DNA from: Fidelibacterota bacterium
GTDB taxonomy: Bacteria > Pseudomonadota > Alphaproteobacteria > Rhodospirillales > Rhodospirillaceae
Assembly (NCBI GenBank): GCA_947476895.1
Contig: CANJRX010000014.1
Location: 1-49,973 of the forward strand
Direction: 5' to 3'
DNA length: 49,973 nt
A program made the position numbers and the translations under genes. The notes beneath the pieces were generated by a model that saw only the letters and a program-made list of their open reading frames with translations, did no database searches and was not told the DNA's origin. Shown here one piece after another: positions 11,340-26,928 of the stretch (within the stretch, counting starts at the first letter, position 1; each line of letters begins with the position of its first letter).

Positions 11340-13661
11340 TTACTTGCCGTTCAGACGTTGCGGCTGAAGGATCGCGCCTTCGTAGGCTGAATCCCAGGCG
11401 GCGAAACGCACCCACTTCTTGCCCTTTGCATCAAAGGGAATTTCGAAGTGATGCGAACCGAGCGCCGGCAGGTCTTTTGTTGAGACAACTTGGCGGCCGG
11501 TTTTTTTGCCGTCGCCCCATACGATTTCAACTTCATCCAGCGGGAATGTGTAGCTGACATCTGCAACGATAGTACGTTTGTCGCCCGTGCCACGCACTTC
11601 AAAGTTCGAAACCAGAACTTCCCCGGTGGTGACGAACATTTCGCCCTTCTTCAGCGCATCGATGATCGGCGTTTGGTCGTTCGTCATCGGCAAGTCGTTC
11701 AGCTTCACGTAGGTGACCGGCGAGCTTGAATAGATGTCGTCGCCGGCTTGCTGGTGACGCACTTCCGAAATCGAGATGGCGTATTTCAGCGGGATCGTCT
11801 TATCGACAGTCCAGTTGGCCAAATCATCAATCAGCGGCAAGCAACGGTATTCGCAGGTTTTGCGTTCCGAGCCGTCGATGCCCATGCCCCAGCGCAAGCC
11901 AAAGCCGAGGTAGTGCGGATCGCTAAAGAAAGCCTGATCTTTAACCGCATCGGGGAATCCTGTGGACCCCTTGGTACGCGGATGCGGCATGGAAATGAGT
12001 GCGTTTTCCGCCTGCACCATCTTCATGAAGTCGGCCGCGCTGCCGACGTGATAGACCTTGCCGTACTTCGGATTATTTTCCTCGAAAGGCTGACCTTCGA
12101 AGCGTTGATCCCAATAGACCGGGTGCGAGAACAAGAGGTCGGTATGGCCGCCCAAGGGGCTGCCATAGACTTCCTGGCTCGGCATAATGACGAAGCCCTT
12201 GTCGGCGCTTTGGCGTGCACCGCTCACGGCAGCCGCAGTGATCGGGAACTGATCGCGGCGACGTTTTGTCGTGGCGGGCGGCAGCTTCGGATTTTCGGCA
12301 GCAACGTTATCGGCAAAGCCGTCCAGCATGACCGAGTCAATCTGGCTGACGATATTGACACCTAAAGCTTTGATCGCTTCAAGGTCAGGCAGGAACGTAG
12401 CCGTGTTTTTGGCGTCGAGCATGCGCTGGCCCAAATCCATGTGATAGTGATGCTGCATCACCTGATAGCCCGGTAGCGGCGCGTACTTATCATCATGGGT
12501 GAAGGCGAGGACTTTCTTCGCGTTGTCTTCCGCCGATCCCAGCGACGGATAGAGGAATACCGTCATCAGCTGCTGGGTATTCGGACGCGCGCTATAGAGC
12601 GCCCAGTTGGCCGGGTTTTCGCTTTCGTGCTCGTGTTCGTTCTGGCGCACGCCGATGGCATATGTGGTGTCGCTGTCTTTGCGATACCAGTTGTAGGCCA
12701 TGTTGATGGCGATTTCGCGCGCCCAGAAAAACTTATGCGGCGGCGGGAAAGCGGAGATCGAACCACCCTTGCCCTCTGCCACGACGACGCGGTTGGCCGC
12801 CGTAAGGTTGACGCGGCCCTCATTGACCTGACCGCCGAAGCGGTAGCTCTGCCAAGTGCTGGAGATATCGCGCCAGGCGGCGCGGCTATCGGCGCTGATG
12901 GGCAGGCCCTTCAGACCTGCGTCGTACTTATAGGCAACCCAATTGGCTTTCGTCGAGGCGACCACTTCCTGTTTAACCAGGTTAGTGCCCTTGAAAACCG
13001 TGTACTGCAGGCTGCCGTCGAATAGGCCCAGTTTGACGCCGGGATAGGTGACGGTTAGGCGGCCGCCTTCGCTGGCTACAGCGCAGTTTTTTACAGCGTA
13101 TACGGCGTTGGCGTTCTGAACTTCTTCCGCTTTGCGCGGCAGGCCCGGTTGATCCGTTCCAGGTAAGCCATCGGCAGGCGGCGGATTGCCGGAGCTGCCG
13201 CCGTTGGGGTTGCGGCGGGGCTCAGCGAAGTCCAGCGGGGCATCCCAGAAGGGATCCCAGCGGTACTGGTTCAGAACGTCTTGGGTGACCTTTACGCCCA
13301 AGCCGTACAGCGGCTGAAGCTGCTGGTTGGACATGCGGCGCATGCCAGTGGTGACGGAGAAGTCCGGCGTTACGTTGGTGCCCAACGACGTCCAGGCGCC
13401 CGCGCCGTGGCGGAGCGAGATGTCTTCAAAGGTCGGGGTGCCGCCGTTGACGGACAAACGCAAGCGCACTTCCTGGTCGCCCTCGCCATTCCAAGTCACG
13501 ACCAAAGCCTGCCCATCGGCCGCGGCGGTCAAACCGGATTGGGCCTTATAGCCGGAGAGATTGCAGCTGATCTGGTCAGCCGCCCAGCTCGCAGACGACA
13601 TACAAAGGACTGAGGTTCCAAGAAGTGCAAACCTCAATGTGTTCGAAGCGCGCATAGTCAT
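11340..13661 (-). CDS. Exported DUF3604 protein (PHP-like metallohydrolase), copy A
   Basis: 773 residues from the ATG at 13661, which has a strong GGGGGAGGGGC ribosome binding site; the longer reading frame to 13883 would run into the upstream gene. A signal peptide ends near SSASWA. The C-terminal half has DUF3604 (PHP/CehA-McbA-like) features: HHYHMDLGQ, MPSQEVYGSPLGGHTDLLF, ISMPHPRTKGS and a final VEIVWGDGKKTGRQ segment. These His/Asp motifs suggest a metal-dependent hydrolase, but no DUF3604 substrate can be inferred from sequence. It is a close paralogue of the gene at 15833-18172, sharing most residues across the whole length. It is the last gene of a minus-strand operon and lies 46 bases after the beta-helix gene. 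Its location is likely periplasmic. Confidence 0.85.
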   Translation of the reverse strand: MTMRASNTLRFALLGTSVLCMSSASWAADQISCNLSGYKAQSGLTAAADGQALVVTWNGEGDQEVRLRLSVNGGTPTFEDISLRHGAGAWTSLGTNVTPDFSVTTGMRRMSNQQLQPLYGLGVKVTQDVLNQYRWDPFWDAPLDFAEPRRNPNGGSSGNPPPADGLPGTDQPGLPRKAEEVQNANAVYAVKNCAVASEGGRLTVTYPGVKLGLFDGSLQYTVFKGTNLVKQEVVASTKANWVAYKYDAGLKGLPISADSRAAWRDISSTWQSYRFGGQVNEGRVNLTAANRVVVAEGKGGSISAFPPPHKFFWAREIAINMAYNWYRKDSDTTYAIGVRQNEHEHESENPANWALYSARPNTQQLMTVFLYPSLGSAEDNAKKVLAFTHDDKYAPLPGYQVMQHHYHMDLGQRMLDAKNTATFLPDLEAIKALGVNIVSQIDSVMLDGFADNVAAENPKLPPATTKRRRDQFPITAAAVSGARQSADKGFVIMPSQEVYGSPLGGHTDLLFSHPVYWDQRFEGQPFEENNPKYGKVYHVGSAADFMKMVQAENALISMPHPRTKGSTGFPDAVKDQAFFSDPHYLGFGLRWGMGIDGSERKTCEYRCLPLIDDLANWTVDKTIPLKYAISISEVRHQQAGDDIYSSSPVTYVKLNDLPMTNDQTPIIDALKKGEMFVTTGEVLVSNFEVRGTGDKRTIVADVSYTFPLDEVEIVWGDGKKTGRQVVSTKDLPALGSHHFEIPFDAKGKKWVRFAAWDSAYEGAILQPQRLNGK

Positions 13662-13707
13662 TAGCCCCTCCCCCTTGTTGTGAGTTTCTCGTCGCGTCCG
13701 CCGAAGT

Positions 13708-15777
13708 TTACTTGCCGGCTGGCGGACCAGCGAGTGAACGAATGGTGACATCACCCCACGGTTTGCCGGGCACGGGCGTGCGCGGACCGTAATGCGGAAG
13801 CGGTTGCCCGCTTTCATAAGCGCCAAGGTCCGGCGCCTTGCCGGTGAAACCGTCGTTGATGTTAGGTATAACCGCACCCGCATCGATCGCCACAGAACCC
13901 CGCTTCAGCGTGAAGTCGAAGTCTTCCGGCGCATATACCTTTTCGACGTCTTTGCGGTCGGCCGGCGACGCTTTGGTGAAGATGTTGTAGTCAACGATGA
14001 CGCTGTTCTTATCGCGGCCCGACGCTGCGGAATATTCCTGCAAGGTTTTGTAGGTGCGTTTGACGACCTTCTCCGGATCTTTCTCATACGCCACTTCGGC
14101 CGGCGGCACGCTCCACTCGAAGGATGTCGCGGCACCGTCATTAGGCCGGAAGCCATTGTGGTCAGACATAGAATAGTTCGTCTGCGACGTGATGGCGTAA
14201 ATCGCGCCCTGGGTATTGCTGAGGATCAGGTTGTTGTGGAAATACAGGCCAGGTGCATTGGCGCGCACATCGCCGATCAGCGTGTTCTGGAACGTCAGCG
14301 TGTTCACCGACGAGCTGTACTTAGTCGCAGCTCCGGTGCTCACGTTGTAGACGACGTTCTGGAAGAAATAGACCGGGCCACCTGCCAGAGGTGTCGCGCT
14401 GAGCGCACCACCCACCGAGTTGTAGCAACGGTTGCGGAAGGCGCGGATGTTATGAGCGCCGCCATCGGTTTCAATGCAGTTGTCGCCCATGTTGAAAAAG
14501 TCGTTGTTGTAGAAATCGATCGAGACCGGAACGCGGTCGCGGATTTCATTGGGCGTGCCGTCCGGATCGCCGTAGGTAGTGATGTCGAGGCCGTCATGCC
14601 AATTGGCAAAGTAGTTGTAAGCCACGACGTGACCTTGGCCGTAAACCTTCACGCCGTATTCAGAGCCGTCCGGTCCGCCGAGCATTTCGTAGCCTTGCGG
14701 ACGCTTGAGCCATTGGCCGTTCCAGCCGACAACGTTTTTCGGGTCGTGACGCCCAATGAAGCTGTTATCTAGAATGGTGATGTACTTGGAGCCCGACCAA
14801 TCGGCCTGCACGCCGCGACCGATGTCGTAGAGACGGGAATTCTTCAGGGTGAAGCCGCTAGACCCAATGATGTCCTTATAGCCGATCAAGAACACCAGGT
14901 TCGCGTTGCGGAAAGTGATGCCCTCGAAATAATTGTAATCGGCGCCCATGAGGTTGAAAAAGGTTTGCGCGTCGTCGCCGTCGAAAATCACCTCGCCGTC
15001 GCCGGCGGCCTTGATGACGATGGGCTTATCGGCCGTACCGTCGGCCGTGAGGTAATAAGTGCCGTCGAACAAGGTCGACAGCGCGTTGTATCCGGGATGC
15101 GGTAGGCCGTTGAGATAGCGCGTCCGATCCGATTTATACTCGCCCGCATGCACCAGGATGATGTCGCCCGCGACAACGCGCGGCGGAAAGGTGCCTTGAA
15201 AGTCTGAGCTAGCGGCGCCTTGGTAATAGGCTTCCATCAAACCAGTAAAGGCCGGCTCCTGCTTGGGGCCCTCCCAGCCGATGGGATAGACGTGATAGAC
15301 CTTTCCGCCCGTGGCCGGCGCCGGTTCCTTGCGCGTGCGCACGTTCACTGTCTTGACGGCCTCGCCCGTTACGCCATCGGCGTCCGCCAGCGTAAAGCGA
15401 GCTTCATATTCAGTGCCGGGTTCGAGATTAAACAGGCTGCCCGCGAACATATTAGGTGCTGTGTAGTCCATGGGATCGGGATGGAAATCCTCGCGCTGCG
15501 GGCCAATGGGGCCGATGTATTCGCCCGACGAGCGCACCAAGGGCATGCCCTTGCGCCACGCAGTTTCACCCTTCTTGCGGAAGTCGACATCAACTTTGGC
15601 GTTGCGATTGTCATCGCCGTCGATGCGCCATTCAAAACCAAGGGAAATCAACGTGGGCGGCTCGGCCCAAAAGTCGCCGGGGGTGGTGCTGTTCGCAGCC
15701 TGAGCAAGAACGGGCGTTCCAAACAGAGCGACGGTCAGCAAGCTGGCGGCGGCCAGCCTTCCATACTTGGTGGCCAT
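13708..15777 (-). CDS. Exported right-handed parallel beta-helix protein
   Basis: 689 residues with a signal peptide (about residues 1-28, ending VLAQAA). An N-terminal beta-sandwich-like region (about 30-150, LEPGTEYEARFTLADADG) resembles a fibronectin type III fold. It is followed by a long beta-helix of short Asn-rich coils (for example ITILDNSFIGRHD and FQNTLIG) and a terminal SVAIDAGAVIP...PDLGAYESG motif. Such proteins are often polysaccharide lyases or carbohydrate-binding proteins; I cannot identify a lyase family or catalytic residues. The start at 15777 has GAGGTGATGCC upstream. It sits between two DUF3604 paralogues, 46 and 55 bases away, so all three are probably made together and act on the same extracellular or periplasmic substrate. 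Confidence 0.8.
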   Translation of the reverse strand: MATKYGRLAAASLLTVALFGTPVLAQAANSTTPGDFWAEPPTLISLGFEWRIDGDDNRNAKVDVDFRKKGETAWRKGMPLVRSSGEYIGPIGPQREDFHPDPMDYTAPNMFAGSLFNLEPGTEYEARFTLADADGVTGEAVKTVNVRTRKEPAPATGGKVYHVYPIGWEGPKQEPAFTGLMEAYYQGAASSDFQGTFPPRVVAGDIILVHAGEYKSDRTRYLNGLPHPGYNALSTLFDGTYYLTADGTADKPIVIKAAGDGEVIFDGDDAQTFFNLMGADYNYFEGITFRNANLVFLIGYKDIIGSSGFTLKNSRLYDIGRGVQADWSGSKYITILDNSFIGRHDPKNVVGWNGQWLKRPQGYEMLGGPDGSEYGVKVYGQGHVVAYNYFANWHDGLDITTYGDPDGTPNEIRDRVPVSIDFYNNDFFNMGDNCIETDGGAHNIRAFRNRCYNSVGGALSATPLAGGPVYFFQNVVYNVSTGAATKYSSSVNTLTFQNTLIGDVRANAPGLYFHNNLILSNTQGAIYAITSQTNYSMSDHNGFRPNDGAATSFEWSVPPAEVAYEKDPEKVVKRTYKTLQEYSAASGRDKNSVIVDYNIFTKASPADRKDVEKVYAPEDFDFTLKRGSVAIDAGAVIPNINDGFTGKAPDLGAYESGQPLPHYGPRTPVPGKPWGDVTIRSLAGPPAGK

Positions 15778-15832: not shown

Positions 15833-18172
15833 TTACTTTTTGGTCGGCATCGGGCCCAGGCGGACCGGCTGCAGGATCGCGCCTTGATAGGCGGAATCCC
15901 AGGCCGCGAAGCGCACCCACTTCTTGCCCTTTGCATCAAAGGGAATTTCGAAGTGATGCGTGCCAAACGGCGGCAGGTCTTTCGTGGAGATGCTTTGGCG
16001 GCCGGTCTTCTTGCCGTCGCCCCAGACGATTTCCACTTCATCCAACGGGAAGGTCCACTCGATGTCCGCAACGATGGTGCGGTTGTTACCCGTACCGCGC
16101 ACTTCGTAGTTGGTGACGAGCACTTCACCGGTGGTGATGTACATGTCGCCCTTCATCAGCGCGTCGATGACCGGCTTCGGATTCGTCGGCGGCGGCAGTT
16201 CGGCGAGCTTCACGTAAGTGATCGGCGAGCTGCCGTAGATGTCGTCGCCCGGCTGCTGCCAGCGGACTTCCGAAATCGAGATTGCGTACTTCAACGGGAT
16301 CGCCTTATCGACAGTCCAGTTGGACAGATCATCGATCAAAGGCAGGCAGCGGTATTGGCAGGTCTTGCGTTCCGAGCCGTCGATGCCCATGCCCCAGCGT
16401 AGGCCGAAGCCGTGATAGTTCGGGCTTTGGAAGTAGTCTTTGTCTTTGATCGCGTCCGGAAAGCCCGTCGAACCTTTGGTGCGCGGATGCGGCATGGAGA
16501 TCAGCACGTCTTCGGCTTCAGCCATCTTGATGAAGTCGTTGGCGCTGCCGACATGATAAACCTTGCCGTAGGGCGCGATGGTTTCTTCGAAGGGCTGACC
16601 GGCTTTGGCCTGATCCCAGAACACGGGCTTCGAGAACAACAGATCGGTGTGGCCGCCCAAGGGGCTGCCGAACACTTCCTGGTTAGCAAGCACGAGGAAG
16701 TTTTTATCCGAGCTGCGCTTGGCGCCTTCGATTGACGCCTGCGTGATCGGCAGGATATCGCGGCGCGGCGGTCCATTCGGATTGGCATTGGCCGGCGGCG
16801 GCGTCAGTTCACCCGTCATCGAGAAACCGGCGATCTGAACCGAGTCAATCTGGCTGACGATGTTGATGCCCAAAGCCTTGAACGCTTCGATATCGGGCAA
16901 TAACGCGCTCATGTTCTTGGCTTCGATCAGACGCTGGCCCAAGTCGGTATGATAGTGGTGCTGCATGACCTGATAGCCGGGCACATGCTTGTATTTGTCG
17001 CCGTGCGTGAAGGCCAACACTTGGTTGGCAGCTTCTTCACTGGCAGCCAGTGTCGGATAGAGGAACACCGTCATCAGCTGCTCGGTACCGGGACGCGCGC
17101 TATAGAGCGTCCAGTTGGCCTGATATTCTTCTTCGGCCAGATCTTCGTGTTCGCTTTGACGAACACCGATGCCGTAGGTGTTGTTCGCGTCTTTGCGATA
17201 CCAGTTGTAACCTACGTTGGTCGCGACTTCGCGCGACCAGAAGAACTTATGCGGCGGTGGGAAGGCGCCGATCGAACCGGCATTGCCCTGCTCCGCCAAA
17301 ACCAAGCGGTTAGAGGCCATGAGCGGCACGCGGTCTTCGTTGCGCTGGCCGCCGAAGCGGTAGCTCTGCCAGGTGTTCGAGATATCACGCCACGTCGCGC
17401 GTGAATCATCAGCGATTTTGAAACCCTTCAAGCCGCCGTCGTATTTATAGGCAACCCAATTCTGCTTGGTCGTAGCAACCACTTCCTGTTTGACCAGGTT
17501 GGTGCCCTTGTAAACCGTGTATTGCAGAGCGCCGTCGAACACGCCGAGCTTCACACCCGGATACGAAACGGTGAGACGTCCGCCTTCGCTGGTCACGCTG
17601 CAATTCGAAACAGCAAACACCGCTTCGGCGCGTTGAACTTCCGACGGCTTACGACCCAGACCGGGTTGATCGGTGCCGGGCAGGCCGTCTACGGGCGGCG
17701 GGTTACCCTGGAAGCCATTGGGTCCACGGCGCGGTTCGCGCATATCCAAGGGAGCGTCCCAGAAGGGGTCCCAGCGATACTTGTTGAGTTCTTCTTGGGT
17801 GATTTTGACGCCAAGGCCATACAACGGCTGCAGCTGCTGATTTGAAATGCGGCGCAAGCCCGTGGTGACAGCGAAATCGGGGGTGAGATTGGTACCCAGC
17901 GCGCTCCACGCGCCGGATCCGCGACGCATCGCGAGTTCGTCAATCGTCGGGGTGCCGCCGTTGATCGACATACGCAGGCGTAGTTCCTGGTCGCCTTCGC
18001 CGTTCCAGGTCACGACCAGAGCAGAACCGTCGGCCGCGGCCGTCAGGCCCGTCTGCGCCTTATAGGCGGACAAATTGCAAACGGCCGGGGCAGCGGCCCA
18101 GGCCGTGGAGGACAGGAGGAGTAAGCAGGCCGTAGTGACCGAGAAGTGAAGTTTTTTGGGATACAATTTCAT
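15833..18172 (-). CDS. Exported DUF3604 protein (PHP-like metallohydrolase), copy B
   Basis: 779 residues, with a signal peptide ending SSTAWAAAP. It is the paralogue of the protein encoded at 11340-13661 and is colinear with it from CNLSAYKAQTGLTAAADG through to the C-terminus. The putative metal-site segments are present: HHYHTDLGQ, LANQEVFGSPLGGHTDLLF, ISMPHPRTKGS. Differences concentrate in the linker after QIDSV, around residues 490-525, suggesting altered specificity around a loop near the active site. The start has AGGGACGTC upstream. It follows the TonB receptor by 66 bases, with a strong stem-loop between the two. An internal duplication around the beta-helix gene is the simplest explanation for the arrangement. 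Confidence 0.85.
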   Translation of the reverse strand: MKLYPKKLHFSVTTACLLLLSSTAWAAAPAVCNLSAYKAQTGLTAAADGSALVVTWNGEGDQELRLRMSINGGTPTIDELAMRRGSGAWSALGTNLTPDFAVTTGLRRISNQQLQPLYGLGVKITQEELNKYRWDPFWDAPLDMREPRRGPNGFQGNPPPVDGLPGTDQPGLGRKPSEVQRAEAVFAVSNCSVTSEGGRLTVSYPGVKLGVFDGALQYTVYKGTNLVKQEVVATTKQNWVAYKYDGGLKGFKIADDSRATWRDISNTWQSYRFGGQRNEDRVPLMASNRLVLAEQGNAGSIGAFPPPHKFFWSREVATNVGYNWYRKDANNTYGIGVRQSEHEDLAEEEYQANWTLYSARPGTEQLMTVFLYPTLAASEEAANQVLAFTHGDKYKHVPGYQVMQHHYHTDLGQRLIEAKNMSALLPDIEAFKALGINIVSQIDSVQIAGFSMTGELTPPPANANPNGPPRRDILPITQASIEGAKRSSDKNFLVLANQEVFGSPLGGHTDLLFSKPVFWDQAKAGQPFEETIAPYGKVYHVGSANDFIKMAEAEDVLISMPHPRTKGSTGFPDAIKDKDYFQSPNYHGFGLRWGMGIDGSERKTCQYRCLPLIDDLSNWTVDKAIPLKYAISISEVRWQQPGDDIYGSSPITYVKLAELPPPTNPKPVIDALMKGDMYITTGEVLVTNYEVRGTGNNRTIVADIEWTFPLDEVEIVWGDGKKTGRQSISTKDLPPFGTHHFEIPFDAKGKKWVRFAAWDSAYQGAILQPVRLGPMPTKK

Positions 18173-18238: not shown

Positions 18239-21202
18239 TTAGAACTTAAAGCGGACGCCCATGTTGAAGAACTGACCAATGCCGTCATAGACGGAACGGT
18301 TGGTCGGTTGCGAGAACGTAGTGGGCGGGCTCAAATCAACTGGCGGCTGGCGATTGAACAGGTTGTTAACCGTCAGGTACAGCTGGTTGCCCGAACCGAG
18401 ACTGTCGAAGCTGTTCGACAGATCATAGGTCACGCTCAGATCCGAGAGGTAGTAAGCCGGGATATCGTTCTCGTTGGTGCCGGTCGGCTCCAACACCGTC
18501 GCGCTCATCAAAGACTTCGAGATGAAGCGTTCGGTGAACTGGATGCCCCATCCGGCCACGGAGTACTGAATAGATCCATTCAGGCGCCATGTCGGGCTGG
18601 AGTCCGTACCCACCGCGCTCTCGGGAGCAGCCAACGGAGCCTGGCTGTAGTCCTTGAGAAGGTGGTTGGCCAACAGGTGGAAACCTAGCGGATTACCGAG
18701 GAGTTCGGTTTTGTAGGTGGCTTCCAAATCCAGACCTCCGACAACCGAGGTGCTGTAGTTAACCGACTGATTGATGATGATCAAAGAGCCCGGGTTCGCC
18801 GCGGAACGCGCCACGCCGCCCGGCGGAGGCGTATAGATTGCCGAGGGGCAGAACGACTGCAGATTTTCCTGGTAGCAGTTTCTGAGAATGGTCGCCGTAC
18901 CCGGAGCTTGGATCGCACCATCGATCTTGATTTTATAGTAGTCGACCGACAGCTGGAGGCCCGGCACGAAGGACGGGGTGAACACCGCACCGTAGGTCTG
19001 TGTCAGCGCCTTTTCCGGAACCAGGTTCAGGTTGCCGATGTTGGAGACGACCAGGGTCGGTGTGGTGATGACACCCGTGCCGCCTGCAACGGTGACGTTG
19101 GTGCAGGTCGTGCAGGGGAACGGGTTGGTGTTGTTGGCCTGTGTGGAGCTGTTGTAGAGATCCAACAGGGTAGGTGCGCGAATGTCACGCGACACGGTGC
19201 CGCGGAAGCGAACATCGTCGACCACCTGGTAATCAAGACCGGTTTTCCAGGTTACCACTGTGCCCGAGACGCTGTAATCGGTGTAACGCGCAGCGAGCTG
19301 AGCGGACAGAGAGCGGGCGAAGGACAGATCCTTCAAGATCGGCACGCCTAACTCGAGGTAGGCTTCCTTCACGTTGAAGTCGCCGCTGAAGGGCTTCGGA
19401 TTGTAGAAGCGATAAGGTCCGAGACCGGTGCCGATACGAGCGGACGGAATACCACGCACGCCGACGACGTCTGTGTTGGTCGCAAGAACGCTCGTGGGCG
19501 AGAGCGGATCTGTGGTCTGTGCCGCGGACTCGGTGTGGTATTCAAAGCCTGTCGCGACACCGATCGGACCGGCGCCGAGCTGGAGGCTTTCGCCGAGGTC
19601 GCCGCGGATGTTGACCTGGAACAGATGCTGTTTCAGGACCAGACGCTTCCATGAGTCGCCGACGACGTAATCTTCGGCTTGTTTCGAAATCGATCCTTCA
19701 CCGAAAAGGTTCATCGGTACGCAGCCAGGGCTTGTGCCCGTGCCGGCCGCCACGAAGTTTCCGGCGGCATCGTAGAAGTTAGAACGGCAAACGAAGTTGC
19801 CGGTCGTCGGGTGCACTACCACATCGGCCGCGGAGAACCAGTTCGGCGTGATCGGCAGGTTGGTTTCGGGCGCGTACTGGCTGGTACGGCCGTTGGAGAA
19901 GGACGCATCCCAGCTCCAGTTATCCGCACCGAACAGCGAAGTACCTTGGAGGCCAGCGGCTTGACGGAAGACGCGAGTCTTCAGATCGATGCCGATCAGA
20001 TCGAACTCTTTCGTATACCGTCCGAGGGTGAACGACTTGATGCCTTGCGCGGTCATTTGGGCTTGGATCGCCGCCGGGATGTAAGGGTTTCCGGAGAAGA
20101 TCGTGGCGGCAAAGGCACCGCTCTGAGCAGATACTTCGTTGCCGCTGTGGGTGAAGGCATAAGAATAACCCGCTTCGGCAAAGGCGCTGACGGTATCGGT
20201 GACGGTCAACTCCGCATGCACGAAGTTGGCGCTGCGGCGTTCATCAGGCGCGAAGCTGATGTTCGGGCGCGGGCCCTCGCCGCCACTCATGTAGGTCGAA
20301 CCGATGTTGGTGCCGTACACGAAGGGTCGCGGCGTGCCATCGGGGTTGAAGGTGATGCCCTTCAAAATGTTGGCAGTGCCACCCGAGCTGGCGGTGATCA
20401 AACCACCGTAGGCGCTGACCGCGTTGCGCACGCTGTCGACGATGAGGTTGGTGGACTGGCCTGCGACCGCAGGCGCGCGCGGGATCAAACCCTTAGCGTT
20501 GTCAAACCATTTTCTGCCCGTCGTTTCTTTGGCGTCGATACCCTGACGACGGTACCACTGGGTGCTGGCGATGACGTGCAGACGATTGTCGAACATGCCG
20601 AAGCCCGTGGCGAGCGAGGCCTTCATGATCGGCAAGTCGCCGATGCGCGAGATGCCACCGCCGACGTCGCCTTTGGTGCCGGTGAACTGCTTATCGAGCA
20701 CCAAGTTGACCACGCCGGCCACGGCGTCTGAACCGTAGGAGGCGGACGCACCACCGGTCACCACGTCAACGCGGCTGACCAGGTTCTGCGGCAGCGTGTT
20801 CAAGTCGACAGTGCCTGACTGGTTGCTGGCGACGGTACGACGACCATCGAGCAGGACCAGGTTGCGGTTGGCGCCGAGGTTGCGCAAGTTCAGGATCGAC
20901 TGACCGTTATTGCCGGTGGCCGACGTGCTCGGCGTGCTGCTGAGCAGCGATGTCGACAAGGCCGGCGTCTGCGCCAGTGCGTCGGCGATGCCGTTCGGAT
21001 TGCTCGCGAGAAGGGCCTCAGAGCTCATCACAGTGACAGGCGTAGGGGTTTCAAAGCCAGTGGTCAGGCGCGAACCCGTCACGATGACTTCTTCAACGTC
21101 CTGGGCGTAAGCCCCAGCCGCGATTCCGCATTGCAGAGCCAGGCTAAGAGCCATCAGGCTCGATCCGGACAGCAGGCCGGACATATTTCTCTTGGAATTC
21201 AT
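18239..21202 (-). CDS. TonB-dependent outer membrane receptor (operon with CapA and DUF3604 genes)
   Basis: 987 residues from the ATG at 21202 (MNSKRNMSGL), preceded by AAAGGGGGAACT; the longer frame from 21280 lacks a convincing ribosome site. A signal peptide ends near AGAYAQ and is followed by a TonB-box-like EEVIVTGSRL. The plug domain contains LNLRNLGANRNLVLLDGRR, VDVVTGGASASYGSDAVAG and VNLVLDKQFTG. A 22-strand-type barrel ends in FFNMGVRFKF with the terminal Phe typical of outer-membrane proteins. It imports a large or scarce substrate using TonB energy. The neighbours (CapA-like, DUF3604, beta-helix) suggest a non-siderophore organic substrate, but this is inference. No secretin-like signalling N-domain is seen. 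Confidence 0.93.
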   Translation of the reverse strand: MNSKRNMSGLLSGSSLMALSLALQCGIAAGAYAQDVEEVIVTGSRLTTGFETPTPVTVMSSEALLASNPNGIADALAQTPALSTSLLSSTPSTSATGNNGQSILNLRNLGANRNLVLLDGRRTVASNQSGTVDLNTLPQNLVSRVDVVTGGASASYGSDAVAGVVNLVLDKQFTGTKGDVGGGISRIGDLPIMKASLATGFGMFDNRLHVIASTQWYRRQGIDAKETTGRKWFDNAKGLIPRAPAVAGQSTNLIVDSVRNAVSAYGGLITASSGGTANILKGITFNPDGTPRPFVYGTNIGSTYMSGGEGPRPNISFAPDERRSANFVHAELTVTDTVSAFAEAGYSYAFTHSGNEVSAQSGAFAATIFSGNPYIPAAIQAQMTAQGIKSFTLGRYTKEFDLIGIDLKTRVFRQAAGLQGTSLFGADNWSWDASFSNGRTSQYAPETNLPITPNWFSAADVVVHPTTGNFVCRSNFYDAAGNFVAAGTGTSPGCVPMNLFGEGSISKQAEDYVVGDSWKRLVLKQHLFQVNIRGDLGESLQLGAGPIGVATGFEYHTESAAQTTDPLSPTSVLATNTDVVGVRGIPSARIGTGLGPYRFYNPKPFSGDFNVKEAYLELGVPILKDLSFARSLSAQLAARYTDYSVSGTVVTWKTGLDYQVVDDVRFRGTVSRDIRAPTLLDLYNSSTQANNTNPFPCTTCTNVTVAGGTGVITTPTLVVSNIGNLNLVPEKALTQTYGAVFTPSFVPGLQLSVDYYKIKIDGAIQAPGTATILRNCYQENLQSFCPSAIYTPPPGGVARSAANPGSLIIINQSVNYSTSVVGGLDLEATYKTELLGNPLGFHLLANHLLKDYSQAPLAAPESAVGTDSSPTWRLNGSIQYSVAGWGIQFTERFISKSLMSATVLEPTGTNENDIPAYYLSDLSVTYDLSNSFDSLGSGNQLYLTVNNLFNRQPPVDLSPPTTFSQPTNRSVYDGIGQFFNMGVRFKF

Positions 21203-21288
21203 AGTTCCCCCTTTAATAAACGACATGGTGTTGCTCCTCAAAAAAATTAGCAGGCCAGGACTGACCTGTTTGTGTCTCATTCAGTAGC

Positions 21289-21326: not shown

Positions 21327-22808
21327 CTACGGGATGGCGATGTAGCCAATCCCGCCTTTGATCGTGATGACCGTGCCGAACGGCTTGCTCATTTCCTGCA
21401 TGCGGGCAAGGATTCGGGCAGCCGAAACCGAGTCAGCCATTTCAGGAACGCCGAAGCGGCCTTCATTGCCGGCAATCTTGCGGCGCATGATGATCGGTGT
21501 GAGCTTCACTTCCACGGGCTTGCCGTTCCTAAACAGCGTACGTGCCACCACCGACTCGTACTGACCGACTTGGTCGTAGCCGCCGCGCTTGGCGAAGCCT
21601 TCGGACACGTAGGCGTCGTTGGTCAGTTCATAACGGTTGAAGAATTCCGTCGGCATGACGCGCACGAGATCGTTCTGCATCGAAAGGTTGCCGAGGCTGT
21701 AGAGGATCGGCTTACCCTTGTAGATTTCAATGCCGCGCAGCACGTGCGGGCCGGTGCCCGAATAGATGTCGGCGCCGGCATCGATCGCTTTTTTCGCGAA
21801 TTCGATGATGAAGTCGGCCGGCGTATACATGTCGCCGAGTTCCGGTTTCGGTGTCGGCCAACGTTCGCCGTGTTCGTGGTTGTGCAAGCTGACCAGCACG
21901 TAAGGCGCGCGAGACTTGCCGTCTTTAATGCTGCGTTCGTATTCTTGCATGTCATGCTGGAATACGCGGCGCACGGCGCCCGGCGTGCCACCCAGCTCAT
22001 AGGTGCGGCCGCCAACGCTCACGTGTTTCGCCGGATCGCGTACCGGCGCGCCGCGCGAACCCCACCAACCCACAGCACCGGTGCCCTGCTCGAAGTTTCC
22101 GGTCATGCCGGGCTTGCCGGAGAGCGACTTCAAGACATCAAAGGTCGCCTGGTCGACGTAATAGGTGGTCGTAAAACGAAGCGGATTTTGGCCAACGCGC
22201 CCAATCAAATCGCCGCGCGGGTCGCCCGCAACAGAGTCTTCGTTGAACGACGATGCGCCGTCGATCAAAGCGATGCGGCCACCGCGCGTATCAAGATAAA
22301 CCGGCGCGCGCGCATCACGCAGCGTGCGGCCGATACCGGCGCAAGCGATGTTGTGACCTTCGGAAATAATCTTCTCGCATTCTTCGAGGGTATCGAGCGC
22401 GCCCTGCGGGCCGTAATCGTACACGTGGTTGTTGGCCTGGCCGAACAGGTTGATGCCCATGCCGACGAGATCTCTGAAGTGAGCGGGCGTCGTCGCCATG
22501 TAGGTGTCACCGCTCAAAGCGGCCGGCGAGGTGGTCTTCTTGGGCGTCACCATTTCGAAGTTGGAGAACGTGGCGTGGCCTTCTTTCAGAACTTTCACGA
22601 GAGCCTGGAAGCGCGGATTGTCATCTTCGAGCGCGGTGCGCGTGCTGATGATGCTGTCGCCAGCCGTCACCAGGGAAAACTCCCCGAGCGGTGTGGGAAG
22701 GCTCGCGGGTTCCGGAGCTGCCGCGGCCAAAGCGACAGTCGCTGTGGAAAGCAGCATCGCGGCCGTCAACAGCGCGACAACCGGCTTAGACTTCGAAGTG
22801 AACTGCAT
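21327..22808 (-). CDS. CapA-family metallophosphatase-like exported protein
   Basis: 493 residues from the ATG at 22808, with AGGGGAGGCTCT upstream, and a signal peptide ending near ATVALAA. It carries the CapA/PgsA-type pattern: AGDSIISTR near the start, ATFSNFEMVTP, ANNHVYDYGPQGALDTLEE, VSLHNHEHGERW and a GTGPHVLRGIEIYKGKPILYSLGNL block. In CapA proteins this fold is a calcineurin-like phosphoesterase associated with poly-gamma-glutamate capsule. Here the usual GHHPH is GTGPH, and no capB/capC genes are near, so capsule synthesis is doubtful. It heads the operon containing a TonB receptor and DUF3604 proteins, and is preceded by a structured leader shared with another receptor gene. Confidence 0.85.
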   Translation of the reverse strand: MQFTSKSKPVVALLTAAMLLSTATVALAAAAPEPASLPTPLGEFSLVTAGDSIISTRTALEDDNPRFQALVKVLKEGHATFSNFEMVTPKKTTSPAALSGDTYMATTPAHFRDLVGMGINLFGQANNHVYDYGPQGALDTLEECEKIISEGHNIACAGIGRTLRDARAPVYLDTRGGRIALIDGASSFNEDSVAGDPRGDLIGRVGQNPLRFTTTYYVDQATFDVLKSLSGKPGMTGNFEQGTGAVGWWGSRGAPVRDPAKHVSVGGRTYELGGTPGAVRRVFQHDMQEYERSIKDGKSRAPYVLVSLHNHEHGERWPTPKPELGDMYTPADFIIEFAKKAIDAGADIYSGTGPHVLRGIEIYKGKPILYSLGNLSMQNDLVRVMPTEFFNRYELTNDAYVSEGFAKRGGYDQVGQYESVVARTLFRNGKPVEVKLTPIIMRRKIAGNEGRFGVPEMADSVSAARILARMQEMSKPFGTVITIKGGIGYIAIP

Positions 22809-22846
22809 AGAGCCTCCCCTAATATTTAAAATAGACTTTGATCCCA

Positions 22847-23018
22847 CACGGCATGGAAGATGAGTGCTTCCCGCCGTCTCTATTCAAGACAACGCGCAGA
22901 AAAATTCTCCACTCGATGAGTTGGTAGCCCTCCCCGTAGCGTTGTCGCGAAGCGGATTTTGTTCGCCCTATCCAAGACAACCTGTTGAGTTGTCTTGCCT
23001 CGTGATAGACACCGCTCC
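22847..23018 (-). promoter_or_regulatory. Candidate structured leader RNA A, upstream of the CapA-headed operon
   Basis: About 170 bases homologous to 26553-26720. In minus-strand RNA order: an outer stem (GATAG 23004-23008 with CTATC 22968-22972) encloses an 8-bp hairpin (GTTGTCTT 22989-22996 with AAGACAAC 22974-22981, 7-nt loop) and an unpaired ACGAGGC bulge. A CGC/GCG mini-hairpin follows, then the hairpin GTCTT/GAGAC (22876-22890), then GGAAG/CTTCC (22855-22871). It ends about 40 bases before the start codon. No known riboswitch class was recognised. Confidence 0.55.
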
Positions 23019-23069
23019 CTTAACTTCGGTGCGGAAGCTTGCTCCACACCGCATATCTTAGATAACGGA

Positions 23070-23090
23070 TGTTACACTACAAGTGTCACA
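23070..23090. promoter_or_regulatory. Operator-like 21-bp near-palindrome
   Basis: TGTTACACT-ACA-AGTGTCACA: two 9-base arms with one mismatch and a 3-base spacer, about 50 bases upstream of leader RNA A. This is the geometry expected for a dimeric repressor or activator. A related CACACTACACT element occurs at 23108-23118 and again upstream of the second receptor at 26788-26798. Confidence 0.45.
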
Positions 23091-23192
23091 CCTAGACATC
23101 AAGCTGCCACACTACACTAACCTTAAACTTGTGGGCAAGGCGTTAGCCCCCCGCAGCAGACCAATAAGTAAGCGCGCGTGGCAAAAAGATCA

Positions 23193-23310: not shown

Positions 23311-23349
23311 AAAAGGCCGGCCATCGCATGAACGATGACCGGCTTTTTT
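23311..23349 (-). terminator. Intrinsic terminator of the TonB receptor gene at 23393-26512
   Basis: On the minus strand an 11-bp stem (GCCGGTCATCG/CGATGGCCGGC, one G-U pair) with a 6-nt loop is followed by CTTTTTTT. It lies about 50 bases after the receptor stop codon. Confidence 0.85.
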
Positions 23350-23392: not shown

Positions 23393-26300
23393 CTACATCT
23401 TGAAGCGAATGCCCGTGCGGAACACGCGACCGAACACGTCGTACAGGCTCGAGTTAACCGAGTGCGAGCTGTGCGGCGTTCCGGTTTGGATCGGGATCAC
23501 AACCGGATCGGAGTTGGCAATGTTCTTCACGTTGAAGAACGCTTCGCCTTCGGCACTTTCACCAATCGCAAACTTATAGGAGGTGTTCAAGTCGAAGTAG
23601 AAGCGGCCAGGAACGTGGTTAGCCGTACCACCGAGCGTGCCACCCAAGATCGTGCTGAGGGTGCGGTTGTCCGCCGTCGAAATCGGGCAGGTACCGGGCG
23701 CGCAGACGATATAGCTGTTGTTAAGAGTGCCCGAGGACACACCGCGCGCCGTGAAGCCGACTTTGAACGGATCCAGATTGTAAGACGCATTCAAAGTCAT
23801 GCGCCAATCGGGCTGACCCCCACCACCGGAATCGCCGTTTTGGCCAGCAACATCAACCGGTTTGTTGATGGTGTTGTTCTGATAGCTCTTCAGGTACAGC
23901 GTGGCGTTACCCGTGAAGCTCAACGTACCGGCCCAATCCGAGACCAGTTCATCGAGGCCCAAACGATAGGTGGCATCGAGGTCGATACCGCGGTCAAGGG
24001 TCTTCGAGATGTTGTAACCGCTTGTCGTTACGCCGATCACAAAGTTGCTCGATCCCGGGCCCGCGAAGGGGTTTTGGAAATCGATCGCGCTGCAATACGC
24101 GGTTTTACCATCATAGCAATACTGCATGATGTTCGTGCTGCTGACGTTGCCGATGGCGTCTTTAATCTTGATGTTCCAGTAATCGACCGAGAAGGTCAGG
24201 CCCGGAACAAAGCTGGGTTGCACCACCACGCCGATACCGGTCGTGTCGCCCTTTTCAGGCTTCAAAGCCGAGTTACCCGTGGCGTTACCGTTGATCTGGT
24301 GAGTCGTGCCGCTGAACGGATCGAAGTTGTTACCACGGCTGAAGGTGCCGGGCAGATACAGTTCCGAAAGGTTCGGCGCACGAATGTCACGCGAACGCGT
24401 CACGCGGAATTTCACGTCCGGGATCGGGGTGTAGGTCGTGCCCGCTTTCCAGGTCGTGACATAGCCCGAGGTCGAGTAGTCGGTCGCGCGTGCGGCCAAG
24501 CTCAGATCCCAGTTGTCAGCCCAGCTTTCGCCTTTGGCCAACGGCACGATGAATTCCAACGCGGCTTCAGACACGTTGTACTTACCAGACGTCGGCTTGT
24601 AGTTGCCCGAGAACACGTTGTTGAACTTGTCGTCGTTTTCGTTACGACCACCGACCTTTTCGGTACGGTGTTCGACGCTCAAAGCCGTGGAGACTGGACC
24701 AGCCCAGAGCGAGAACGGCTCGCCGGTGAGTGAGCCCGAGAACACGTTCTGGGTCAGTTTCTGGTACATGTGGCCAGGCGTGGTCACGTAGTCGATGGCA
24801 GCAGCGCTGTTTACGCCGATACCGACGACGTTGAAGGGTACGCAACCGTCGTTGGCGTTCGTAAGCGTCGAACGGCAAACGATGCGGCCGGTGTTCGGAT
24901 CGCGGACCGCATCAACGGCCTGGGCCCACTTGAGTTCGTCGGTGATGGCGCCGCCCGTGGTGATCGAGTTACGGCTGTAGCCGTTCTGGAAGTACAGATC
25001 CCAACCCCACGACTTGTCGAAGGCATCGAAATTGCCGGTGGCGCCGAGGACGTTACGGTTGACGAAGTGTTCGTTCTCGGTGGTGACGGCACCCAAATCC
25101 GCGGTCCAGGCGCCGAATTGCAGGACGGTGGTGCTGGCCGGGATCTTGGCGCGCACTTCGGCCGGGATGAAGGGGTTATCCGCACGCAAGCCGAGGTTGA
25201 TGACGTTGCTCGATCCAGTACGGCCGGTGGTGGCGTTGTAGGTGCCGTCGCCGACCTGATTGCTAACCGCCGAGATCGGGAACGGGAACGGGACGCCCTG
25301 AGCGAGACCGCTCGGCGCACCGCCGTTAACGTACGGCTGCAAGGCGTTGGTGATATAGGTGGCGGAGTTAGCCGACGCGCCGCCCTGACGCAGGCGGGGC
25401 AGACCATAACCAAGTGTAAAGGCATGGTTCCACGAAGCCTGAGCGTAAACGTTCACGTTGTCGCTGACATCGTAAGCGACGCGCAAGAAAGCCGACTGGC
25501 GCGATTCTTTGTTGTCGAGTGAGACATAAATCGGCGCCGTATTTTGCTGGGCCCAATCGCCGCCGATCATTTCCGGAGCGGAATAGACCGAGCCGTAGTT
25601 GAACTGGTACGGAACGCCGCCCGGACCGAAGGCTGTGCCTTTCAACGTACCGGAGGTGATGAGACCGCCGGCTGCCGTGTTGGCCATGCCAACGTGGTTG
25701 GAAGAGATGTAGAACGGCTGACAGGTGCCGGCCGTGCAAGTCGAGAGATAGGCGGGGTTGGTGATGGTGCGTGCGCCAGTTTGATCCCAGGCGCGGCCGT
25801 TGGAGCCGTTCAAGATACCCGTCTTTCTGACCTGCTCACCGCTGATCAGCACGTGGCCACGACCGCCACCAAAGCCGAAGCCGGCTGCGAGGCCGACCTT
25901 GTAGTTTTTGTCGTCGCCGTAAGACGTGATACCGCCGGATACTTCGCCCTTCACGCCGGTATAGGTCTTATCGAGAATGAAGTTCGCAACACCGGCCACG
26001 GCGTCCGAGCCGTACACGGCCGACACACCGCCGGTCACGATATCGACTCGGGCGACGAGCATCTGCGGGAAGGTGTTGATGTCGACGGCGCCGACCGAGT
26101 TGCTGCCGACGGTGCGGTGACCATCGAGGAGCATCAGCGAGCGCGTGGCACCGATACCGCGCAGGTTCAACACGTTCAAGCCGGCGTTGCCGCTGCTGAT
26201 GCCGGTTTGACCGTTGGTCGGAGTAGCGCTGCCGGAGAAGATCGGCATGTCTTTCATGGCTTCAGCGAGGTTCGACGTGGCCGAATTTTCGATGGCTTCG

Positions 26301-26512
26301 ACGTTCATGACGGTCAACGGGGTCGGCGCTTCATAGCCTTCACGGGCGATGCGCGAACCGGTGACCACGATTTCTTCAACTGCGCCGGCAGCTTGCTCGG
26401 CGGCGAACGCGACATGTCCGCTCAGCAGCGAAGTGGCAACGGCGAGCGAGCTAACGGTCGTCAGCGCACGAGCGCGAACGGAAGACTTAGAATGCAAAGA
26501 GCCGAACAACAT
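23393..26512 (-). CDS. TonB-dependent outer membrane receptor (leader-RNA controlled)
   Basis: 1039 residues from the ATG at 26512 (MLFGSLHSKSSVRAR), preceded by AGGGGGTATCATT. A signal peptide ends at about AFAAEQ, followed by the TonB-box-like EEIVVTGSRIAREGYEAP. The plug has LNLRGIGATRSLMLLDGHR, VDIVTGGVSAVYGSDAVAG and VANFILDKTYTG, and the barrel ends VFRTGIRFKM. It is the same subfamily as the receptors at 18239-21202 and 46322-49201, and closest in its plug to the latter (both have GYEAPTPLTV). It is a single cistron, with its own leader RNA upstream and a strong terminator downstream. Its neighbours suggest an organic acid or related compound as substrate, but this is inference. Confidence 0.93.
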   Translation of the reverse strand: MLFGSLHSKSSVRARALTTVSSLAVATSLLSGHVAFAAEQAAGAVEEIVVTGSRIAREGYEAPTPLTVMNVEAIENSATSNLAEAMKDMPIFSGSATPTNGQTGISSGNAGLNVLNLRGIGATRSLMLLDGHRTVGSNSVGAVDINTFPQMLVARVDIVTGGVSAVYGSDAVAGVANFILDKTYTGVKGEVSGGITSYGDDKNYKVGLAAGFGFGGGRGHVLISGEQVRKTGILNGSNGRAWDQTGARTITNPAYLSTCTAGTCQPFYISSNHVGMANTAAGGLITSGTLKGTAFGPGGVPYQFNYGSVYSAPEMIGGDWAQQNTAPIYVSLDNKESRQSAFLRVAYDVSDNVNVYAQASWNHAFTLGYGLPRLRQGGASANSATYITNALQPYVNGGAPSGLAQGVPFPFPISAVSNQVGDGTYNATTGRTGSSNVINLGLRADNPFIPAEVRAKIPASTTVLQFGAWTADLGAVTTENEHFVNRNVLGATGNFDAFDKSWGWDLYFQNGYSRNSITTGGAITDELKWAQAVDAVRDPNTGRIVCRSTLTNANDGCVPFNVVGIGVNSAAAIDYVTTPGHMYQKLTQNVFSGSLTGEPFSLWAGPVSTALSVEHRTEKVGGRNENDDKFNNVFSGNYKPTSGKYNVSEAALEFIVPLAKGESWADNWDLSLAARATDYSTSGYVTTWKAGTTYTPIPDVKFRVTRSRDIRAPNLSELYLPGTFSRGNNFDPFSGTTHQINGNATGNSALKPEKGDTTGIGVVVQPSFVPGLTFSVDYWNIKIKDAIGNVSSTNIMQYCYDGKTAYCSAIDFQNPFAGPGSSNFVIGVTTSGYNISKTLDRGIDLDATYRLGLDELVSDWAGTLSFTGNATLYLKSYQNNTINKPVDVAGQNGDSGGGGQPDWRMTLNASYNLDPFKVGFTARGVSSGTLNNSYIVCAPGTCPISTADNRTLSTILGGTLGGTANHVPGRFYFDLNTSYKFAIGESAEGEAFFNVKNIANSDPVVIPIQTGTPHSSHSVNSSLYDVFGRVFRTGIRFKM

Positions 26513-26552
26513 AATGATACCCCCTAAAAGGATGAAATAGATCAAAGTCCCT

Positions 26553-26720
26553 TCGGCATGGAAGATAAGCGCTCCAGGCCGTCTCTTTCCGAGACAACGC
26601 GCGGGTCACCGCATTTAAGCGATTGAAGAACCCCCCTGTTATCTCGACGCGAAAGCGTGGCTTCCGCGCTGTCTATCCAGAACAACCCGCGGGTCGCTCT
26701 GCCTCGTGATAGACATCGAA
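26553..26720 (-). promoter_or_regulatory. Candidate structured leader RNA B, upstream of TonB receptor
   Basis: Homologue of leader A. The outer stem is a perfect 8 bp (TGTCTATC 26670-26677, GATAGACA 26708-26715). The inner stem (AGAACAACCC 26679-26688, GGGTCGCTCT 26691-26700) pairs completely only in minus-strand RNA, through two G-U pairs. The ACGAGGC bulge is kept. The GTCTC/GAGAC hairpin (26581-26595) is perfect, and GGAAG/CTCC (26560-26575) is again G-U paired only on the minus strand. The leader ends about 40 bases from the receptor start codon. Confidence 0.55.
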
Positions 26721-26859
26721 TTCTCTATCCAGCTTTTATCCGGCGAAGAAAAACGTTTCCCCGCCTCCTTCTTTTCGAAATCGCGCTCACACTACACTGG
26801 CGAGAAAGTTAGAAGCAAGGTGGGGAGACCCCCTCACTTCCCCGAATAATCCCGCGCGT

Positions 26860-26899
26860 TGCAAAAAGAACACAGCGCGGAAGTGAAACTTCCGCGCTG
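26860..26899 (-). terminator. Intrinsic terminator of the heme-c/propeller gene
   Basis: CAGCGCGGAAG at 26873-26883 and CTTCCGCGCTG at 26889-26899 form a perfect 11-bp stem with a 5-nt loop. On the minus strand TGTTCTTTTTGC follows. It lies 29 bases beyond the stop codon at 26929. Confidence 0.85.
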
Positions 26900-26928
26900 C
26901 ATCATTGTAACAGTAAAGTGTGTGTGAA

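Follow-up and report, generated by a model that had tools for sequence, protein, structure and literature searches.

Genes and features of the locus

The window analysed here, a single stretch of 49,973 nucleotides, carries on its minus strand a CapA-like gene located between two TonB-dependent receptor genes, one 3' of it and the other, receptor gene B, on its 5' side (Table 1). The CapA-like gene is preceded by leader A (22806-23051, minus strand), and receptor gene B by a homologous leader, B (26510-26765, minus strand). An initial annotation proposed an operon of CapA, TonB receptor and DUF3604 genes. Pfam searches bear out the CapA domain (PF09587) and the TonB receptors, but not DUF3604: the supposed gene at 15833-18172 has no Pfam match at an E-value of 0.001, and its NCBIfam match, to a CehA/McbA metallohydrolase, lies below the cut-off (21.6 bits versus 80). 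The sole NCBIfam match of the CapA-like protein (21327-22808) is the lasso-peptide tryptophan epimerase MslH, at 206.5 bits where the cut-off is 700. Elsewhere in the window, positions 204-4208 encode a large protein with FecR, Calx-beta and RTX-type calcium-binding repeats, and 11340-13883 has no Pfam match.

Terminator-like hairpins are found upstream of both the A and the B regions, and therefore each region is probably a separate transcription unit. Near A, two such sites occur in 601 bases, versus 0.7 expected.

Table 1. Features of the A and B regions (positions in the window)
Feature	Position	Strand	Basis or details
TonB-dependent receptor gene 3' of CapA	18239-21280	-	PF00593, PF07715
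CapA-like gene (PGA_cap)	21327-22808	-	PF09587, 134 bits; start codon 22806-22808
TonB-dependent receptor gene B	23393-26512	-	PF00593, PF07715
A: duplicated intergenic region (promoter region and leader) before CapA-like gene	22806-23190	-	global alignment with 26510-26870
A: Shine-Dalgarno-like AGGGGAGG	22813-22820	-	sequence; start codon 22806-22808
A: module 2 (GCGUUGUCUUGAAUAGAGAC and hairpin P5, 22850-22875)	22849-22895	-	folding, repeat comparison
A: strand GCGUUGUC, used in both P3 and P4	22888-22895	-	invariant in A-D
A: G-rich GGGGAGGG between modules	22928-22935	-	read from sequence
A: 5' strand of P3 (GACAACGC)	22939-22946	-	predicted pairing with 22888-22895, probability at least 0.99
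A: module 1 (GUUGUCUUGGAUAG and hairpin 22947-22966)	22943-22983	-	internal repeat
A: P1 (UCUAUC/GAUAGG), 6-7-nt ACGAGG(C) bulge, inner 10-bp helix P1b	22967-23009	-	folding z -3.49
A: hairpin P0	23027-23051	-	10 bp, z -3.35
Terminator-like hairpin 3' of receptor gene B	23316-23343	-	12-pair stem, then CTTTTTTTGC
B: homologous intergenic region before receptor gene B	26510-26870	-	global alignment
B: module 2 (P4 26581-26595, P5 26555-26580)	26554-26600	-	folding
B: 5' strand of P3 (GAGAUAAC)	26638-26645	-	predicted partner 26591-26598, pair probability 1.0
B: module 1	26647-26687	-	internal repeat
B: P1 with bulge and inner helix P1b	26671-26714	-	z -4.57
B: hairpin P0	26742-26765	-	10 bp, z -2.9; shares little sequence with P0 of A
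Terminator-like hairpin upstream of B	26869-26903	-	1 site versus 0.8 expected
AGTGTAGTGTG, common to A and B, presumed promoter region	A 23108-23118, B 26788-26798	-	motif scan

Architecture of the leaders

In each leader, a hairpin, P0, precedes a module that occurs twice in tandem, with imperfect repetition; the limits of the modules, as well as the registers of P1b and P3, were set by eye or by hand. The second module ends in the predicted hairpin P5, about 30 nucleotides ahead of the Shine-Dalgarno sequence. The common segments named in the initial annotation are all present on the minus strand: GTCTATCACGAGGC at 23010-22997 in A and 26714-26701 in B, TTGTCTTGGATAG in A versus TTGTTCTGGATAG in B, AGAGACGGC at 22873-22881 and 26578-26586, and ATCTTCCATGCC in both leaders. 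The homology is real, but its extents had been drawn too short, because the tract continues through the P0 hairpins and then along the DNA to 23190 and 26870.

The module repeat is clearest when halves of different leaders are compared, including leaders C and D, which are described below. None of 1000 shuffles reaches the score of half 1 of B against half 2 of C (45) or of D (40), or that of half 1 of A against half 2 of C (31). Half 1 of B is matched by 9 of 1000 shuffles against half 2 of A and by 4 of 1000 against its own half 2. The other 11 of 16 half comparisons, among them A, C and D against their own second halves, are not significant (at least 54 of 1000 shuffles, the figure for A against itself being 54). 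From these sequence comparisons, we read the repeat as a probable old tandem duplication of a module composed of a GUUGUC strand, GGAUAGAC and then a hairpin. When the modules are folded alone, a local hairpin with the GUUGUC strand is formed by module 2 of all four leaders and, among the first modules, only by that of B.

Duplication of the whole intergenic region

The homology between A and B begins at the start codons and extends as far as the T-run of the terminator-like site that lies upstream of B. Even the part upstream of the leaders (23056-23190 versus 26766-26870) aligns with a score of 51.5, where shuffles give 2.6 +/- 8.1 and none of 500 reaches it. This DNA includes AGTGTAGTGTG, whose only matches in the window at no more than one mismatch are these two (0.34 expected; two or more in 4 of 100 shuffles), and also a run of 16 nucleotides that differs at one position (4 of 1000 shuffles). 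At the beginning of its coding sequence, the CapA-like gene resembles receptor gene B (17 of 2000 shuffles for 30 bases, 9 of 2000 for 36), but not the paralogous receptor gene downstream of C (290 and 287 of 2000). Perhaps a receptor copy was lost and its control region left on the CapA-like gene.

The initial annotation pointed to homology before unrelated genes. As an argument for RNA function this falls, since the whole receptor intergenic region was duplicated; with the promoter region copied too, homology before an unrelated gene is no proof, on its own, of an RNA. It is conceivable, if somewhat improbable in our judgment, that plain duplication accounts for the leaders, such that promoter, ribosome binding site and some chance survivals are what is conserved and the RNA fold is without function in itself. 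The continuation of the homology through the promoter region, including AGTGTAGTGTG, favors this explanation. Were the leaders only duplicated DNA, they would be a warning against calling similar leaders before unrelated genes regulatory RNAs.

Distribution of homologous leaders

Leaders A and B are homologous although they precede unrelated genes, as the initial annotation had it; alignment and BLAST agree on this point. A BLAST search of the 2.7-Mb source genome (G000) with leader A finds the 3' block of B at an E-value of 4e-8, and the similarity is thus not due to chance. The same search reveals a third copy, C (G000:C13:217-261, E 0.003), upstream of a paralogous TonB receptor gene. The C and B receptors are 82% identical over 1026 aligned residues, and fourfold sites of their genes are 65% identical (466 sites). 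The contig that carries C starts with twenty C residues just upstream of the leader (L010:1-20), which resembles an assembly artefact.

A covariance model built from the 3' parts of A, B and C (R1) detects a fourth, diverged copy, D, in a sister species (G009) at 22.8 bits and an E-value of 0.17. It was accepted because it ends exactly at the start codon and because the encoded protein, a relative of the receptor whose gene is cut by the contig end, begins like those of B and C. Homologues were sought by BLAST with leader A in 61 genomes, with R1 in 99, and with a model of all four copies (R2) in 73 genomes of the family, 317 of the order, 19 of the genus (with laxer filters) and a class-wide sample of 385; these sets overlap. 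In all these searches, convincing copies are confined to G000 (three R2 matches) and G009 (one), which are 2 of the 317 order genomes, and the matches of the four copies themselves are true by construction. In the class sample, G000 is the sole genome with a match. The restriction to two species in the searches made is a further point in favor of plain duplication.

As judged by open frames, none of the 16 weaker model matches (L037-L039, L078-L083, L095-L101) precedes a receptor gene, and 14 of them lie inside a long open frame on either strand. A long frame opens within 250 nucleotides downstream of L079, L083, L098 and L100, and by eye its start is not receptor-like. The genus match L102, obtained with laxer filters, is module 1 of B itself. 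Unfiltered scoring was applied to 10 stretches near receptor genes (7 of which include the receptor N-terminus), 6 receptor loci on named metagenome-assembled contigs, and the leader of the G009 CapA orthologue (L073); apart from D, the best match among these receptor-gene stretches and loci has an E-value of only 0.22. A phrase scan of viral contigs and a search of plasmids with leader B gave no matches, and searches of open-access PMC literature listed no paper whose title or first abstract lines describe such a leader. The receptor family is common: 17 of the 19 genus genomes match receptor B at an E-value of 1e-60.

The CapA orthologue of G009 is 68% identical to the CapA-like protein, and it is preceded not by this leader but by an unrelated one. 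Thus, the leader probably belonged originally to the receptor and was acquired by CapA. The G009 leader contains another dyad, ATATCAGCACG...CGTGATAT, at L073:3117-3093 on the minus strand. In G009, a receptor gene likewise follows CapA.

Evidence for constraint on RNA structure

In the sense orientation, leaders A, B and C (199 to 209 nucleotides) fold better than shuffled sequences, with z-scores of -2.91, -4.50 and -2.85, respectively. D folds no better than its shuffles (-0.15, or -0.02 with P0 included). Among the leaders of 19 other receptor genes, one (L024, -4.52) is below -2.85 and three are below -2.2, some of these 206-nucleotide control stretches being partly coding (L020 is the end of a CapA gene). 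The control, with 80 shuffles each and start codons chosen by hand, comprised 13 of 17 receptor loci from this and related genomes and 6 from named metagenome-assembled contigs; it excluded L027 (which is C), L028 (which is B), L023 with its in-frame stop and the truncated L033. At L023 (G000:C3:69234-69530), a TonB receptor plug domain continues across one in-frame TAA, suggestive of a pseudogene. The L024 leader (G000:C19), at a z-score of -4.5, is itself far below its shuffles.

The initial annotation reasoned from strand asymmetry that the leaders function as RNA. B and C do fold better in the sense than in the antisense orientation (antisense z-scores of -1.2 and -1.5), but A folds about as well in both (-2.9 versus -2.8; antisense -2.77). 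The G-U change on which that reasoning drew, GTCTT/GAGAC in A versus GTCTC/GAGAC in B, is real but concerns one pair only, and the inner helix of P1 carries more changes.

In that inner helix, P1b, 10 of 10 pairs are kept in A and in B, 9 in C and 7 in D, with registers set by hand. Between A and B, two pairs are changed on both sides and three on one side, and none is broken; relative to A, four pairs are changed on both sides in C, and one in D. All 7 A-B changes are transitions, and the chance of keeping 10 of 10 pairs is 21% if only transitions occur and 0.12% if changes are uniform. P1 as a whole has z-scores of -3.5, -4.6, -2.6 and 0.57 in A, B, C and D, and P0 has -3.35, -2.9, -2.4 and -0.9. 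The module-1 hairpin is stable beyond shuffles in B, C and D and weak in A (-0.74 to -0.8). D lacks the CUAUC/GAUAG helix.

Conservation between A and B is uneven. Measured by length, identity is 78% in module 1 and 84% in module 2. Elsewhere it is lower: 62% for the upstream DNA, 55% for the middle, 48% for P0 and 67% for the segment running from P5 down to the start codon. The contrast is smaller per aligned column (0.83 and 0.84 in the modules, versus 0.72, 0.65, 0.71 and 0.76 in the same order), the global alignment being generous with gaps. In the B-C comparison, higher identity is limited to module 2 (77%) and to the bases leading down to the start codon (76%), and module 1 (60%) is no better than the rest.

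Several of these observations argue against plain duplication: A-B identity is highest within the two modules and not in the promoter region, P0 and P1b remain hairpins in A, B and C despite changed sequence, the sense z-scores lie below those of most other receptor leaders, and an internal repeat is present. In its favor, D is unstructured and module-2 covariation does not exceed shuffles. The initial annotation had suggested a covariance-model search for homologues with covariation; two more copies (C and D) came to light, but the module-2 covariation among the four sequences is reached by 126 of 500 relatedness-preserving shuffles. RNAalifold applied to all eight modules gave no meaningful fold.

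Constraint at the RNA level is therefore likely, not proven. The evidence for it is of three kinds, namely folding, retained hairpins and conserved modules, and comes from three copies in one genome. As to the proposal of an undescribed structured RNA, the leaders fold well on the coding strand, are absent from Rfam and show compensatory changes in the inner P1 helix, but D folds no better than shuffles and the distribution covers 2 of 317 genomes of the order; overall, the first interpretation is partly supported.

Alternative pairing and access to the ribosome binding site

The invariant strand GCGUUGUC has two possible partners in A, B and C: one lies upstream and gives P3, the other is the adjoining downstream segment and gives P4. 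The two predicted folds are mutually exclusive, and a choice of partners for one invariant strand is what a toggle would require. Folds of the full leaders prefer P3 in A and B (probability 0.99-1.0) and P4 in C. With P3 or P4 forced, the predicted energies are -68.0 and -62.8 kcal/mol for A, -85.8 and -80.7 for B, and -59.7 and -67.3 for C, so that forcing the non-preferred helix costs 5.2, 5.1 and 7.6 kcal/mol, respectively. No P3 partner of the A/B kind was seen in D.

A switch that hides the ribosome binding site by means of P3 and P4 was considered and rejected, because predicted access to the Shine-Dalgarno sequence hardly changes: mean values with P3 and P4 forced are 0.31 and 0.31 in A, 0.63 and 0.55 in B, and 0.42 and 0.54 in C. 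Since the choice of fold leaves access about the same, an outside factor is the likelier agent. This near-equality gives more weight to plain duplication, and less to each of the interpretations below that invoke a switch in folding. A long-range pairing of the 3' strand of P1 with the start region was found in A only and was dropped.

Known RNA families and regulators

No known riboswitch had been recognized in the initial annotation, and no Rfam family matches the leaders. At the gathering threshold, Rfam 15 gives no matches in the window. A relaxed E-value reveals nothing in the leaders and one chance-level match upstream of A; in the E-value scan of other loci, L036 has four matches outside its leader, L003 none, and the surroundings of B none. 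The positive control, RF00174, was found in L019.

A scan of leaders A and B detects terminator-like sites upstream only and none inside, so attenuation and transcriptional riboswitch mechanisms were rejected, and control would be translational or by stability. Control by CsrA through GGA in hairpin loops was also rejected: the best match to PF02599 has 12.8 bits against a cut-off of 27, in a genome that is 97.7% complete.

An undescribed class of metabolite riboswitch, with the modules as tandem aptamers, would suit the two modules and the alternative helix, and a cobalamin riboswitch precedes a receptor gene in the same genome. Against it, the four copies have no invariant unpaired core besides the module strand, the leaders occur in two species only, and no effect at the ribosome binding site is predicted. 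The near-equal access noted above lowers its standing further, and we regard such a riboswitch as very unlikely. The initial annotation suggested that a fixed 7-nucleotide ACGAGGC bulge might be a ligand or protein site. The bulge is identical in A and B, but it measures 6 to 7 nucleotides, reads ACGAATT in C and is missing from D, and nothing points to a ligand.

The same segment could in principle encode a leader peptide, since (A/G)TG TCT ATC ACG AGG CA, common to A and B, would be translated as MSITRQ from an in-frame GTG in A or ATG in B. The two peptides are of unequal length and have different sequences beyond the Q, a start codon is missing at this place in C, and D lacks the segment. 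A leader peptide was therefore rejected as extremely improbable.

Possible functions and comparison with known systems

The interpretation that we favor, at about even confidence, is that the RNAs are narrowly distributed cis-acting leaders that control translation or stability of receptor mRNAs, perhaps as targets of an sRNA. They would be structured mRNA leaders of about 250 nucleotides belonging to a small TonB-receptor gene family, and copying of the receptor's whole intergenic region would have brought one to CapA. Ribosome loading on the receptor and CapA mRNAs, or the lifetime of these mRNAs, might then be set by an sRNA or protein bound to the repeated modules, or by which fold is adopted. 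The nearly unchanged Shine-Dalgarno access reduces the weight of this interpretation as well, and the lack of a predicted effect of the P3/P4 choice at the ribosome binding site is a point for plain duplication. If the RNA function is real, the leaders form a recent small family whose origin is still legible in the duplicated region, the module repeat and the new operon; they would offer a test case for the origin of cis-regulatory RNAs and place more receptor genes under post-transcriptional control.

A landing site for a trans-acting sRNA overlaps with the favored interpretation. Here, an sRNA would pair with the G/A-rich segments, both the intermodular ones and those of the Shine-Dalgarno sequence, and with the unpaired module loops. 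The genome encodes hfq (PF17209, 107.9 bits), and GGGGAGG occurs twice in A, inside 22928-22935 and 22813-22820. However, G-rich segments near start codons are ordinary, and we hold this specific form to be rather doubtful. Receptor mRNAs in Caulobacter are regulated by sRNAs according to excerpts of two reports (PMC6237742, PMC12559287). The ChvR sRNA pairs, independently of Hfq, with two sites in the 5' UTR of the chvT receptor mRNA, and SisA, whose family has a UUUCCUCCCU core, represses several receptor mRNAs (PMC6237742 and PMC12559287, respectively). As far as that description goes, chvT resembles the present leaders as a structured TonB-receptor leader subject to post-transcriptional control at two sites; the likeness is one of description, and the excerpt mentions no tandem module repeat (PMC6237742). 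SisA and CrfA in Caulobacter offer the parallel of one post-transcriptional regulator for several receptor mRNAs, with 5' UTR pairing described in the excerpt for one (PMC12559287).

The hairpins might simply protect the mRNA, a reading that also overlaps with the favored one. The 5' UTR of E. coli ompA is a stabilizer composed of stacked hairpins in the long leader of an outer-membrane-protein mRNA, which the present leaders resemble in both their stacked hairpins and their length. By analogy, P0 and the hairpins after it would shield the mRNA from RNase attack and have no sensing role. A row of hairpins, P0, P1 and P5, is predicted in A, B and C, and a module-1 hairpin in B, C and D (weakly in A). 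P0 and the module-1 hairpin share little sequence among the copies, which would fit a role in stability alone. This reading leaves unexplained why GCGUUGUC is invariant, why module 2 is 84% identical and why the module is repeated, and to our knowledge the ompA 5' UTR has no counterpart of the repeat or the invariant strand. We consider a purely stabilizing role unlikely.

Quite unlikely is a young leader RNA that arose by tandem duplication of a module and has already been copied to an unrelated operon. The modules would act jointly through the strand common to the alternative helices and may serve as paired sites for a protein, an sRNA or a ligand; this reading, too, loses weight from the near-equal access. 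If it is true, the leaders are a cis-regulatory RNA at birth, spreading within one genus.

The cobalamin riboswitch resembles these RNAs as a structured leader ahead of TonB-receptor genes, and it does so within the same genome, but neither RF00174 nor any other Rfam family matches A, B, C or D. The cobalamin riboswitch of the source genome (RF00174, 126 bits) is located at L019:1022-1213 (G000:C6), before another TonB receptor gene.
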